Source: an uncultured bacterium (GTDB lineage Bacteria > Cyanobacteriota > Vampirovibrionia > Gastranaerophilales > Gastranaerophilaceae). Taken from it: DNA of 64,000 nucleotides. Made by a program: the position numbers and the translations under genes. Under the pieces are notes generated by a model. That model had not been told where the DNA came from, searched no databases, and was given only the letters and a program-made list of their open reading frames with translations. The stretch spans positions 1 through 64,000 of the forward strand of contig CASFPN010000015.1 in NCBI GenBank assembly GCA_949296425.1, read 5' to 3'. Below, in pieces: positions 2,562-59,901 of this stretch; the first letter of the stretch is position 1; every line of letters begins with the position of its first letter.

Positions 2562-3366
2562 TTAGTATTTAATTTCCCAATTATCCTGCATAATTCGATA
2601 AACACAAGACATTCCGTTAGAGTTATTTTTTGAAGGGTCACAGGCATCAAGGTTAGTGCTGTACGGTTCAATTTTATTGTTTTTGATTTTAAAAGCAAAT
2701 ATATCATCTCCGAAAGTATTAGGTTTTTTATTCCCGTTTATATCTGTATAAATAAAAAGTTGAGCATTAGTAGTTCCGACAATATCAAAAAATATATTGG
2801 TTCCATCTGCAAGAGTTATGTAATATGAGTATTGATTTGGAGTATTTATATTTGTAGAATTTCCATTCTGGTAATAGTATGGAAAAGCCCAGCAACCTCT
2901 TTGATTTTTACAGTTTTGTGCTACTTTCAGGTAAGGAATTATTTTTTTTACGGTACTTTCTGTTGCTTGGAAATCATAATCAACTAATTTCCAGTTTTCT
3001 GTTGTACCATCTTCCACAAGCGTTTGTTGTATTGCTTGTGATAAAACAGAATAAACTTTTTTTAGCTTAACTGCGCGGTCTTTTTTTTGAGTTTTGGAAA
3101 TTATAGTTGGCAAAGTCATCGCAGCTACTATACCTATTATGCCTAGGGTGATTAGAACCTCGGCTAAAGTAAAGGCACAACGACGAATATTGTTTGAAGT
3201 GAATACGTACGTAACAGCTTTTGCCAGAGAGAATGTGCATTTGCGTTTAGGATGTGAAAGAGTTTGTTTCGTTGAAGCTTCATACTTTTCTATCTTTTTA
3301 TCTTGTGAAAAGCAAGCCCAGCCTACTTTTTCGGGGGGCAATTCTCAGCTTCTTACTCTTTTTCAT
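2562..3366 (-). CDS. Prepilin-like secreted protein behind an out-of-frame leader (C6 run)
   Basis: A ribosome-binding site (GGAG) and ATG at 3366 begin a 22-codon leader ORF (MKKSKKLRIAPRKSR...) that stops at 3298. It runs over a C6 tract at 3333-3338. The prepilin frame lies one base further along; in that frame a TGA precedes TTG 3341, the only own start before the pilin segment. Joining the frames needs loss of one base or gain of two, giving 267 residues for loss of one. The prepilin part has CAFTLAEVLITLGIIGIVAAM, a type IV prepilin-like hydrophobic N-terminus, then a globular domain with Cys in CDPSKNNSNGMSCVY at the end, seen in sibling proteins. Either a slippage-controlled gene, a gene started at TTG, or a decayed copy. 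Confidence 0.6.
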
Positions 3367-6751: not shown

Positions 6752-7366
6752 CTAATATCCGTTAACAATCCACTCTCTGACTCTAAATTTTGCGCCTAAA
6801 TCTTTTGCGATTTGTCCGCATTTTTCAAGGTCAAGATGTCTGCCTTTATAGCCTTCCACAACGCTTGCCGTAACTGATATTTCTTCATCAGAGCAGGCTT
6901 TTATAAACTTTTTCATCTCTTCGTATGCTTCGTCAAATTTTGGTTGAGAAAGTTTATCATATTCCTCTTTTGTAGAGCCATTTAAGCTTACTGAAAATTC
7001 ATCAACAAGCCCTTTTAATTCTGGAACAACATTTTTTTTATAAACAAAATTAGCGTGTCCGTTTGTATTAACTCGAATTTTTGTATCGGGGTATTTTTCT
7101 TTAATGTATTTTGCGACTTCTTTCAAAACATCTAATTTCATCATCGGTTCGCCGTAGCCGCAAAAAATAACTTCTTTTGACGGCTTAAAAGTTTCAAACT
7201 GTTGTATGACATCAAAAGAAGTAAAATTTTCATTATCAAGCCAGAGTTCCTGACCTTTGACATCACTTTTGTCTTTTCTAAGGCAAAATATACAGTCATT
7301 TGTACACCGGTTAGTAAGATTTATATAAATTTTTCCATCGAGTAAATATACTAAAGTGTTTGACAT
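6752..7366 (-). CDS. Radical SAM protein of the TatD-associated type
   Basis: 204 residues from ATG 7366, chosen because AAAGG lies six bases upstream; a longer frame to 7438 has no such site. CTNDCIFC near 19-26 is the C-x3-C-x2-C cluster that binds the 4Fe-4S cluster for S-adenosylmethionine cleavage. GYGEPMM near 70 is the SAM-contacting GGE-like motif, followed by a truncated beta/alpha barrel (RVNTNGHAN, VDEFSVSLNG, VTASVVEG). The length and YLLDGKIYINLTNRC start resemble the small TatD-linked radical SAM family, whose substrate is not known to me. No C-terminal auxiliary cluster domain. A small Cys-rich ORF starts 99 bases away on the opposite strand and could be a substrate. Confidence 0.85.
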   Translation of the reverse strand: MSNTLVYLLDGKIYINLTNRCTNDCIFCLRKDKSDVKGQELWLDNENFTSFDVIQQFETFKPSKEVIFCGYGEPMMKLDVLKEVAKYIKEKYPDTKIRVNTNGHANFVYKKNVVPELKGLVDEFSVSLNGSTKEEYDKLSQPKFDEAYEEMKKFIKACSDEEISVTASVVEGYKGRHLDLEKCGQIAKDLGAKFRVREWIVNGY

Positions 7367-22931: not shown

Positions 22932-23887
22932 ATGGAACTAAATATTAAAAATTGTAAACTCGGGGGGGGGGCACTGTAGGCTCCGCCGGAGGCAAAAAAG
23001 CTAAGAGGCATAGATGCGAAGCTAGTTTAGAAGTTAAGAAGATAAGAAGATATGAAGATAGGCTATTAACAGCAACTACCTCCTTCCTTCCCTTATTATG
23101 GAAGGATAAGAGGATTGGTAACAATCAATACCCACCCCAACCCTCCCGAATCAGGGAAAGAGTATCCTGTCATTGCGAGGGTGCTACGCACGTAGATCTG
23201 CCGGTCAGTCAACGCAAATACGCTTTTACCCTTGCAGAAGTTCTCATTACCCTTGGCATCATAGGTGTTATTGCGGCTATAACGATTCCTGTTTTGGTTG
23301 AAAGTTACCGTGAAAAAGCTCTGGAAACAGGCTTGGAAAGATTTTATTCCGTAATGAATCAGGCTTTTTATCATTCGAGACTTGATAACGGAGATGAAGA
23401 ATATTGGGAAGATTTTGGAGATAACTCTTGTGCGTATTTTAAAAAATACCTTTTACCATATTTAAAAAATATTGAATATGAATGCGGATATTATAATAAA
23501 GTTGCCGATTTGAAAAATCCTTCCAAAGTTGATGATGAGAGATTTGTAGGTATATATTTTGCATCCGGTGATATGGCTGTTTTTTCCTATGGCAAATATT
23601 TTACTTATACAAATAAGAAAAAGTATTATAAGGTTTATCCTGAATTTATGAGTAGTAGTCCAAATGATAGTTCGGATTTATACGGCAGTGAGCTATTCGT
23701 TTTTAAGATAGCTAAAAATTGTGCGTCTAATGCAAAAGTCGGTGGAATAGTTCCGCTTAATGATTCGTTTATGTATTCTGATAAACAGCTATTAGAAATT
23801 TGTAAACTTCATTCTCGTCAATGTTCTACAATCATTGTTCGCAACGGTTGGAAAATTCCGGATAATTATCCTTATAGGATAAAATAG
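22932..23887 (+). CDS. Prepilin-like secreted protein behind leader and G10 tract (locus 1, frame off)
   Basis: ATG 22932 follows GGAAAGGA, which is unusually far (about eight to ten bases). As written it gives MELNIKNCKLGGGAL and stops at TAG 22979. The prepilin frame is one base out: it is open from TAA at 22955, has no ATG, GTG or TTG before TTG 23294, and that TTG lies at the end of the pilin hydrophobic segment, so it cannot be the start. One added G (or two lost) joins both parts into 318 residues: leader, Gly run, 84 filler codons partly made of dispersed repeats, then RKYAFTLAEVLITLGIIGVI (23216-23275) with the Glu5-type prepilin helix, then a Cys-containing globular domain (LEICKLHSRQCSTIIVRNGW). 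Probably surface-exposed through a type IV pilus or pseudopilus route. Confidence 0.75.
22962..22971 (+). repeat. G10 homopolymer at the leader-prepilin junction (locus 1)
   Basis: Ten G in CTC-G10-CACTG, in codons 11-14 of the leader ORF. Such tracts are slippage-prone in replication and transcription. G11 or G8 would open the prepilin frame; G10 closes it. Confidence 0.9.
23181..23194 (+). repeat. Short dispersed repeat GTGCTACGCACGTA, copy 1
   Basis: The 14-base unit also occurs at 37268-37281 and 49205-49218. It contains the arms GTGC-TAC-GCAC. In locus 1 and locus 2 it is translated as GATHV just before the prepilin signal; the next about 30 bases are also similar between the two loci (CAGTCAACGCAAAT). 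Confidence 0.85.
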
Positions 23888-27003: not shown

Positions 27004-27035
27004 TAATCTCATAATTTGGGCAATTTATGAGATTA
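27004..27035. promoter_or_regulatory. Inverted repeat, candidate XRE operator
   Basis: TAATCTCATAA (27004-27014) and TTATGAGATTA (27025-27035) are perfect 11-base arms with a 10-base centre. They lie between the XRE regulator and the LysM gene, about 50 bases before the LysM start. There is no T run after it, so an operator or a 5' UTR hairpin is more likely than a terminator. Confidence 0.55.
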
Positions 27036-27083
27036 CAATGTTTTTATATAAATGTACACATAAACACGAAAGGAGTAAAAACT

Positions 27084-27419
27084 ATGACATTAGACATTAA
27101 CAAAACCAATCAAAATCACCAGGTGAGGGGGGGGATGGACCAAAAACAGGCTAAAATGTACCTTGTTAAAGCTGGTGATACTTTAACAAGTATTGCAAAA
27201 CGTTTTGGAGTCTCTGTTAAGGATATTTTGAAAGTAAACCCGGATATTAAGGACGCAAATAAAATTATGGCCGGAGAAGTTATAAGAATGCCGGCAAAGG
27301 CAGAACTTAATCCTAATCATATAAATATATTTGATACGGTCGATAAGAATAATCCTAAGCTAAATATGGCTTTGCAATTGAATATGACGACAAAAGAAAA
27401 TCCAGGTTTTAAAAATTAA
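27084..27419 (+). CDS. LysM-domain protein with in-frame G8 tract
   Basis: 111 residues from ATG 27084, with AAAGGAG upstream. Residues 1-14 are MTLDINKTNQNHQV, then a G8 tract encodes RGG, then MDQKQAKMYLVKAGDTLTS. One LysM domain follows (about 25-70: YLVKAGDTLTSIAKRFGVSVKDILKVNP, IMAGEVIRMP), which binds peptidoglycan or other GlcNAc polymers; a polar tail ends the chain. No signal peptide. With G8 the gene is in frame; G7 or G9 would stop it early, though the in-frame ATG at 27135 sits directly after the G run, which could act as its ribosome-binding site. So slippage would alter only the first 17 residues or the expression level. Confidence 0.85.
   Translation: MTLDINKTNQNHQVRGGMDQKQAKMYLVKAGDTLTSIAKRFGVSVKDILKVNPDIKDANKIMAGEVIRMPAKAELNPNHINIFDTVDKNNPKLNMALQLNMTTKENPGFKN
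27127..27134 (+). repeat. G8 homopolymer in the LysM gene
   Basis: Eight G in GTGA-G8-ATGG, codons 15-17 of the LysM gene. In frame as written. It is shorter than the G10 tracts but of the same kind and also near the start of the gene. Confidence 0.9.
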
Positions 27420-49033: not shown

Positions 49034-49884
49034 ATGTTGAATGTAAAGAAATGTGAACTCGGGGGGGGGGCACTCCTGAGCTAGGCAGAAGTCAAGAGGT
49101 CAAGAAGTCAAGCTATTTAAATCTCGTAAGATACTATGTCACTAAGGCACTAAGAAGTATCGTAAAAATTTTTCCTCTCTCGGGAGAGGAACTAAGGAAG
49201 AGGGGTGCTACGCACGTAGTCCTACCGACCAGTCAACGCAAATGCGCGTTTACATTGGCAGAAGTTCTCATCACCCTCGGCATCATCGGCGTGGTTGCAG
49301 CGATGACTCTGCCTGTTTTGATTACAAAGCATCGTGCTCAGGTTTTACAGACTCAATTTAAGAAGTGTTATTCCGAGGTCTCTCAGGCTCTTGCTCAGTT
49401 AAAAAAAGAGGATGAATATTTGTCGATTACTAACGGCCCTGAATTGCAGGATTTTTTGGTAAAACAGTTTAAGGAGGCTAAAGCTCCTGATCGTTTAATT
49501 TATTCGCAAACACCTGAAAAGCAGAAAGAATTAATCGGTTTTGAACTACCTGTTTATAAATCGTTCGACAAGAAAAATGAATTTTATAAACGAGCGCTTG
49601 ACGACGGGTTTATATTTATAAATAATGAATATTTTGTTTTTATTAATGCAGATTATTCTAGTATTTCGGATGCTGCAATAATAATTGATGTTAACGGACT
49701 TAATGGCCCTAATGTAGCCGGTTATGATTTATTTGCTTTTAAATTGGATGAAAATTTTAATTTGCGTTCTCAAGATAAAAATTCTCTTACCTGCACTGAA
49801 ACATTTCCAGGAGATCATAACGGTTTTTCCTGCAGTTATAATGCTATGACTGATAAAGATTATTTTAAAAATTTGGGCTGGTAA
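49034..49884 (+). CDS. Prepilin-like secreted protein behind leader and G10 tract (locus 2, frame off)
   Basis: AAGGAGG and ATG 49034 start MLNVKKCELGGGALLS, which stops at TAG 49084. The leader lies 14 bases after secA and has no promoter of its own that I can see. The prepilin frame is one base out; a TGA at 49054 closes it upstream and its first own start is TTG 49255 inside the pilin segment (FT|LAEV), so no independent start exists. One added G gives 283 residues: leader, Gly run, 59 filler codons, SQRKCAFTLAEVLITLGIIG, VVAAMTLP, then a domain with CTETFPGDHNGFSCSYNAM near the end, two Cys likely bonded as in the siblings. Prepilin peptidase would cut before the F of AFTLAEV; the long N-terminus is odd for a prepilin leader. 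Confidence 0.75.
49061..49070 (+). repeat. G10 homopolymer at the leader-prepilin junction (locus 2)
   Basis: Ten G in CTC-G10-CACTC, codons 10-13 of the leader. Same length, same surroundings and same register error as in loci 1 and 3. Confidence 0.9.
49205..49218 (+). repeat. Short dispersed repeat GTGCTACGCACGTA, copy 3
   Basis: Identical to copies at 23181 and 37268. Translated as part of GATHV in the prepilin frame, 10 codons before the AFTLAEV signal. Confidence 0.85.
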
Positions 49885-58828: not shown

Positions 58829-59901
58829 ATGGAAAAGATGTTAGAAAATCAGGTCTTCGGGGGGGGGGCACTCGCCGCTTAAGTTTCTTTCCCATCGCCT
58901 TTTGTGAGAGGGAGCAGTTGGGTGAACAAATTGAACTTACAACTGCTGGTGAGAGTCTTTTACAGGTCAAGAAGACAGTTTTTGTCATCCTGAACTTGTT
59001 TCAGGATCTAAAAAGGAGATTACGAAAATGTACTTCCCTCTCCCGGGAGAGGGTGGAGAAGGAAATATTCGCAAATCCCAAACTAACTCATCTACGTGAA
59101 AAACAGGCTGAGTTCACTCTTGTAAAAAAGTCAAAAGTATGTCATAATAGTGATATGATACATCTCAATAATAACTTCGATTTACGTTTCACTCCTCACC
59201 CTTCACTAAAGAAGAAAGCCGCGTTTACACTTGCTGAAGTCTTAATCACTCTCGGCATTATAGGTGTGGTTGCGGCCATGACTATTCCTGCAATAATATC
59301 AAAATATCAGCATAAAGCATTGGAATCTGCGTTTAAAAAGTCATATTCCAATCTAATGCAGGCAATGGTGTATGCAGAACCTGAATTAATATCTGATATT
59401 ACAGGCAGTGGAGTTGTTACTGGTGATTCTGAATTTTATAATAAGTTATGGGAAAGATATAAAATAATTGAAGATTTAACAGCACATAACAAATTTAATA
59501 TGGTGAATGTGTATTCTCAAGGAGTTAAAACTTATAATAAAAAGGCTGATGCAGATACTGCTTGTCCTCAGCTGCCTAATTTAGTTGTTTCTGACGGTTC
59601 ATCAGTCGGCGGAATGTTCAATTGTGCAGGAAACTGGGTGGTCATTGATACAAACGGTCCATATAAAAAACCTAATGCTGTGGGACATGATATTTTCTAT
59701 TTCGCGGTTGACTCAAAGACAAAACGTTTATTCCCTTTAGGTTCAAGTATAGTTTCAGGCTACTGGAATTTTAGCAATCAGGAGCAGTATTGTTCCATTG
59801 ATTCTTCTAATGCACGAAATGGTTATGCTTGTACAGCTTTTGCTCTTTCAAATAAATGTCCTGATGATGAATCAAAAACATATTGGGAATGTCTGCCATA
59901 A
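58829..59901 (+). CDS. Prepilin-like secreted protein behind leader and G10 tract (locus 3, frame off)
   Basis: AAAGGAG and ATG 58829 start MEKMLENQVFGGGALAA, stopping at TAA 58882. The prepilin frame is one base out. It could formally start at ATG 58756, but this has no Shine-Dalgarno site and lies before the predicted RNA start. One added G gives 357 residues: leader, Gly run, 118 filler codons that include FVILNLFQDLK (the well-known translation of the GTCATCCTGAAC palindrome) and two stretches of the TCCCTCTC...GAGAGGG kind, then LKKKAAFTLAEVLITLGIIG and VVAAMTIP, then a 200-residue domain with four Cys (TACPQLPN-, FNCAGNW, QYCSIDS, YACTAF and CPDDE-type sites). Probably exported through a type IV pilus/pseudopilus machine. 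Confidence 0.75.
58859..58868 (+). repeat. G10 homopolymer at the leader-prepilin junction (locus 3)
   Basis: Ten G in TTC-G10-CACTC, codons 11-14 of the leader; same register error as loci 1 and 2. Confidence 0.9.
58984..59008 (+). repeat. Palindromic dispersed repeat inside the locus 3 filler
   Basis: GTCATCCTGAAC then TTGTTTCAGGATC; ATCCTGAA and TTCAGGAT form the arms. The same family as 26014 and 33307, but here read in frame (VILNLFQDL) without stop. Confidence 0.8.

Follow-up and report, generated by a model that had tools for sequence, protein, structure and literature searches.

Out-of-frame G tracts ahead of long open leaders suggest a default-OFF repertoire of switchable type IV-like prepilins in a gut Gastranaerophilaceae bacterium

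The pilus operons of Bifidobacterium breve are a published precedent for an intragenic G-tract switch in the gut (PMC9187656). In B. breve UCC2003, a gut commensal, a G10/G11 tract lies early in the gene of a sortase-dependent pilus, the reference sequence is out of frame, and a one-base slip fuses the open reading frames (ORFs) of head and body (PMC9187656). Many intragenic G tracts control surface genes in the poly-G phasome of Campylobacter jejuni (PMC6321876), and Neisseria phasomes are among the subjects of two further reports (PMC5084427, PMC5953494). The present analysis concerns type IV-like prepilin genes behind such tracts in a 64,000-nucleotide stretch (the window; contig CASFPN010000015.1, assembly GCA_949296425.1) from an uncultured bacterium of the Gastranaerophilaceae, in the 2.0 Mb genome to which it belongs (46 contigs) and in related genomes.

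Neisseria pilC and other loci with poly-G in the 5' coding part resemble the present ones in that the tract lies near the 5' end of a pilus-related ORF and frameshifts turn the gene ON or OFF; unlike here, few pilus genes are involved and tract lengths vary. We know of no long leader filler or common flanking motif at the Neisseria loci. Rickettsia palindromic elements, which are inserted in-frame into ORFs, show that repeat DNA can be kept open and translated, as is proposed for the fillers described below, but here the repeats occur almost only in prepilin leaders, behind the tract. Whereas B. breve has two loci with sortase pili, the present genome has about 60 type IV-like prepilin loci with a conserved motif in either orientation and long stop-free leaders. 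In contrast to C. jejuni, 85-89% of the tracts are G10, 8% of the loci are ON, about a third are poly-C and the G strand is tied to GC skew. The system is of a kind already known, that of contingency loci; new are the fixed length, the off-by-one default, the strand locking and the long leaders.

The loci are best read, with a probability of about 0.6, as a default-OFF repertoire of slipped-strand phase-variable prepilins turned ON by a change from 10 to 11 letters. Each accessory prepilin would be read from its own Shine-Dalgarno sequence (SD) and ATG: first about 10 codons (the head), then a G10 or C10 tract, then a long leader that runs on into the pilin. With a tract of 10, as expected in most cells, the frame would close a few codons later (OFF); a replication slip from 10 to 11, or a two-base loss to 8, would place head, leader and prepilin in a single ORF (ON), from which the pilin would then be expressed. 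The leader would presumably be cut off by the prepilin peptidase at the G/A-F site, and since it would be discarded after cleavage it need only stay open, its amino acids being free. With about 60 loci mostly OFF, a random few pilins would be expressed per cell, and surface diversity may be the purpose. The sequences thus suggest a large set of surface genes that is normally off and switchable by a one-letter slip.

The window's genome contains 94 G tracts of at least 8 letters and 102 prepilins by matches to PF07963 (N_methyl). At 63 loci an SD and ATG are followed after 18-70 nt by a G/C tract, and from there up to a prepilin the DNA has no stop in the prepilin frame. The G letters are on the coding strand at 42 of these (class A); the other 21 have C on the coding strand (class B) and heads resembling MKKIKKLRI. 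Like contingency loci, all 63 have a mononucleotide tract of at least 8 letters near the 5' end of the ORF. The short leader expected of type IV prepilins is lacking at the tract-bearing loci, where its median length is 72 amino acids (aa; 16-222); three tract-less prepilins have leaders of 4-8 aa. Mechanical ORF calling misplaces the prepilin starts of tract genes.

Frame statistics were obtained for 148 distinct loci across the genus; tract lengths are those of the assembled consensus, with one genome per species, and comparisons run across loci and species. Read in the prepilin frame, the fillers between tract and prepilin contain 24 stops in 8910 codons; the remaining frames have 720 and 684 (0.079 per codon off frame), and 142 of the 148 loci have no stop in the prepilin frame. 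This pattern spans different filler families, both coding orientations and all three codon phases of the tract. Tract length also decides, as in contingency loci, whether start and body share a frame: 129 of the 148 loci would be continuous at a length of 11 (or 8), where 1/3 would be expected (p about 6e-42, counting loci as independent although paralogues are not; the effect recurs in each well-sampled genome, with p=1e-15 in G000 and p=7e-12 in G023, and in each codon phase). Head and filler lengths each vary modulo 3 yet compensate one another, a coupling of upstream start and prepilin which indicates that the filler evolves as coding sequence. Separate internal starts of the leader were considered and rejected for most loci, 133 of 149 having none with an SD. 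Because SD-preceded in-frame starts within the filler are so rare (16/149) and length is coupled to the upstream SD and ATG, the leader appears to be read from the head. By these comparisons the filler is maintained as coding DNA in the frame of the prepilin.

The tract is exactly 10 letters long at 132 of the 148 loci, so that most genes are one base short; 118 of these 132 need +1. Only 12 of 142 intact loci (8%) are in frame as assembled. Among about 287 motif tracts genus-wide, 244 are G10 and 20 are G11, which indicates that ON alleles exist. Across loci and 20 species the length classes are 85-89% G10, 5-7% G11 and about 5% G9. Most characterised G11 loci are in frame, and flanking indels put some prepilin loci in frame even at G10. 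One interrupted tract, GGGGGGAGGG, lies on the minus strand of L063 at 11414 (C20); its total is still 10, its leader is stop-free and +1 is needed, which makes it a natural test of the slippage requirement.

Four loci lie in the window, and all four proteins carry the prepilin cleavage/methylation motif [GA]-F-T-L-x-E and a hydrophobic helix (TIGR02532 above cut-off).

22932-22961, plus strand: locus 1 head, ATG and 9 codons (MELNIKNCKL), with a GGAAAGG-type SD upstream
22962-22971, plus strand: locus 1 G10 tract in the motif CTC-G10-CACT; +1 (G11) would join head and prepilin
22972-23224, plus strand: locus 1 filler (leader), 253 nt, 84 stop-free codons in the prepilin frame from 22973
23225-23887, plus strand: locus 1 prepilin, FTLAEVLITLGII at 23225; TIGR02532 above cut-off, N_methyl match at 23213-23284
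49034-49060, plus strand: locus 2 head (MLNVKKCEL), SD AAGGAGGT
49061-49070, plus strand: locus 2 G10 tract, +1 needed
49071-49248, plus strand: locus 2 filler, 59 stop-free codons (49072-49248), of the commonest leader family
49249-49884, plus strand: locus 2 prepilin, TIGR02532 above cut-off
58829-58858, plus strand: locus 3 head (MEKMLENQVF)
58859-58868, plus strand: locus 3 G10 tract, +1 needed
58869-59223, plus strand: locus 3 filler, 118 stop-free codons (58870-59223)
59224-59901, plus strand: locus 3 prepilin, TIGR02532 above cut-off
3339-3366, minus strand: locus 4 (class B) head (MKKSKKLRI)
3333-3338, minus strand: locus 4 decayed tract, C6 on the coding strand (G6 on the plus strand) in the conserved TTTTTC-G-CAATTCTCAGCTT motif; frame off by 2
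3174-3332, minus strand: locus 4 filler, 159 nt, no stop in the prepilin frame
2562-3173, minus strand: locus 4 prepilin, TIGR02532 above cut-off

Loci 1-3 have a common plan of SD and ATG head, G10, filler and prepilin. An earlier note, made from the sequence alone, gave the stop-free runs as 84, 59 and 118 codons, and these counts are exact; the other two frames of the same fillers contain 8 and 5, 2 and 7, and 11 and 7 stops. The off-frame stop rate gives chances of 0.001, 0.008 and 6e-5 for such runs, rarer than those then estimated (0.018, 0.06 and 0.0035). The estimates had also been combined into a joint probability, although a piece of about 45 nt common to loci 1 and 2 makes the three loci partly dependent; this no longer matters because 142 of the 148 loci across the genus are stop-free. 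Fillers full of stops in relatives had been named as the result that would speak against translation, and the 24 stops against 720 and 684 do not bear this out. The proposal that the filler is translated, giving prepilins a long N-terminus, holds in so far as the filler is kept coding in the prepilin frame, but loci 1-3 are one base out of that frame, so that translation of filler and prepilin would require the tract to gain one base or lose two, or else a -1 shift by the ribosome. It had been overlooked that a G10 tract puts the upstream ATG in a frame other than that of the prepilin, with a stop a few codons past the tract, as had the fourth locus with C6 at 3333-3338, which is perhaps a locked-OFF allele with its leader still open. 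Elsewhere in the window, a small LysM-like ORF (27027-27419) has a motif-less G8 in its 5' part (27127-27134); at this length the ORF is in frame, and an ATG follows the tract directly.

The consensus on the G strand is TTC-G10-CAnT with a weaker CT.AGCT behind it, and it is common to classes A and B despite different mRNAs and peptides. Heads and mRNA flanks differ between the classes; Rfam gave no element matching locus 1 (no dedicated structure search was made). The motif is present in 20 of 39 related genomes, all of one genus, and in none of 15 genomes from the rest of the order; an exact match was not found in viral contigs. A genome of a different family in the same order (G027) has 88 prepilin matches although it lacks the tract motif. 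On the minus strand of L107 at 8043 (C16), a non-prepilin ORF, 333 aa if +1, has ATC-G10-CAAAT near its start and is likewise one base short.

The motif G runs of the window's genome are confined to one strand per contig, irrespective of gene direction. On a 740-kb contig of a congener the G strand flips with the sign of the GC skew, and the sampled prepilin tracts there match the local 20-kb skew. In the window's genome the skew of whole contigs is weak and in most cases agrees, with disagreement in one larger contig and a neutral skew in another. The G strand is probably the leading strand, as assigned by GC skew. Because the tract strand follows the skew for both gene orientations, a process at the level of replication is favoured over translation or transcription alone.

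The leaders are mosaics. The filler of locus 2 has 55 matches in the genome, nearly all ahead of prepilins, and the units of the locus 1 filler are likewise almost confined to prepilin leaders, with 96-98% identical copies at C18 and C23, both preceding a prepilin. The earlier suggestion that parts of the fillers are extragenic repeats is therefore only partly right, and general extragenic (REP-type) repeats were rejected for the main units, whose copies sit almost solely before prepilins. In 148 locus pairs the leader is alike and the head unlike, with the break at the tract; locus 1, for instance, combines the head of the C27:26478 locus with a leader known from C27:31883, C18 and C23. Some leaders include tandem remnants of the prepilin start (FTLAKGATHV...). 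The leader at 7265 on the minus strand of L063 (C20) is composed of such remnants (SQRKSVFTLAKGATHV repeats), which suggests growth through tandem duplication. A comparison of the dN/dS type, proposed earlier as a check on translation, gave no clear sign of amino-acid constraint: in the commonest leader family pairwise pN/pS comes to 0.71 when read in the prepilin frame, against 0.69 when read in one of the others. As the ratio is no lower in the prepilin frame than elsewhere, the leader seems constrained chiefly to remain open, its amino acids being hardly kept.

One congener, G002, lacks the motif and has 82 G tracts, many within other genes and in a mixture of in-frame and out-of-frame states, with lengths of 8-15 among those fetched. 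Its prepilin tracts, 12-14 long, are without exception out of frame. G-tract phase variation of the ordinary kind thus appears to exist, and to be at home, in the genus. The G002 loci L252-L271, with tracts in many different genes and three adjacent C-tract ORFs in L269, resemble a large conventional phasome. A generic G-tract equilibrium at 10 as the sole cause of the motif tract length is ruled out by the 12-14 long prepilin tracts of G002 and by the non-motif tracts of the window's genome, which, unlike its motif tracts, spread over 8-12 (Fisher p=4e-7). Loss of mismatch repair was likewise rejected as a cause, mutS1 being above cut-off in 36 of 39 genomes including that of the window.

Several observations weigh against slippage as the switch. 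Tract length is unusually fixed, at 85-89% G10 across 20 species. By comparison, Campylobacter tracts are 52-53% 9G and 26-30% 10G (PMC6321876), and the neighbouring motif-less tracts of the window's genome vary between 8 and 12 (p=4e-7). The intact mutS would be expected to damp slippage, and the strong preference for ON at 11 over 9 or 12 is unpredicted by simple symmetric slippage. Assembled lengths of G tracts may also be wrong (PMC9187656). Fixed length with fixed direction is what programmed recoding predicts and is the main argument for it: G10/C10 would be a slippery site where some ribosomes shift by -1 or RNA polymerase adds a base, every locus would yield a constant low amount of prepilin, and length would be fixed because recoding needs it. 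The single preferred direction at 118 of 132 G10 loci (+1, i.e. -1 ribosomal), as at a programmed frameshift site, the intact ORFs past the shift at nearly every locus and the conserved flanks agree with this. Recoding nevertheless seems unlikely, though worth serious thought, since it leaves unexplained why G10 or C10 is used according to gene orientation, with the tract following the replication strand, and why conservation of the flanks shows in the DNA and not in mRNA or peptide; the lack of an Rfam match at locus 1, the range of 12 to 14 in the congener's prepilin tracts and the G11 alleles at about 7% of motif tracts also speak against it. These same flanks, conserved in both gene orientations, together with the G strand tracking GC skew, G10 being held in motif tracts and not in the genome's other tracts, and the reassortment of heads and leaders at the tract (the 148 leader-sharing pairs, with locus 1 as an example), point to a dedicated DNA element. 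TTC-G10-CAnT would then be bound by a protein or structured at the fork and drive directed +1 slippage, or recombination between heads and leader-pilin units. This is improbable in that ordinary homologous recombination between repeats can yield mosaics and flank similarity is partly common descent; no recombinase or trans-acting factor turned up, and none was searched for. A more speculative and likewise improbable reading makes the motif, with its G strand tied to the leading strand, a genus-specific DNA element that serves as a one-directional frame switch coupled to replication. A factor or fork structure would hold the tract at 10 and make the change from 10 to 11, so that each cell would sample a few of about sixty pilins, and the tract would be the place where dispensable leaders are exchanged.

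If G10 were a systematic under-call of a true G11, most genes would be ON; G-tract lengths are known to be unreliable, one annotated G11 having been mostly G12 (PMC9187656), and almost no locus is ON as assembled, the longer-tract congener included. Such an artefact is very unlikely because the same assemblies call G11, G12 and G13 tracts, G10 is agreed among metagenome-assembled genomes of several independent studies, the lengths called in the congener put some non-prepilin tract genes in frame, and flanking indels bring some prepilin loci into frame at G10. That the prepilins are pseudogenes, with the open frame a by-product of repeat duplication, is scarcely credible: repeat units are indeed common to many leaders, but most prepilin bodies are intact (read-through ORFs of about 240-400 aa), the frame is kept in differing leader families across many species, and a depletion of stops, by a factor of about 30, affects a single frame.

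Default-OFF phase variation thus remains the preferred reading. Literature searches gave no report of phase variation in the gut lineage to which this bacterium belongs. Consensus assembly conceals the ON state of tract genes, and the fixed off-by-one length and strand locking make the mechanism testable, as length may be held by selection, by a factor acting at the DNA level or by recoding. If the reading is true, this uncultured gut lineage would have in its prepilins one of the larger phase-variable repertoires formed by a single gene family in a bacterium.
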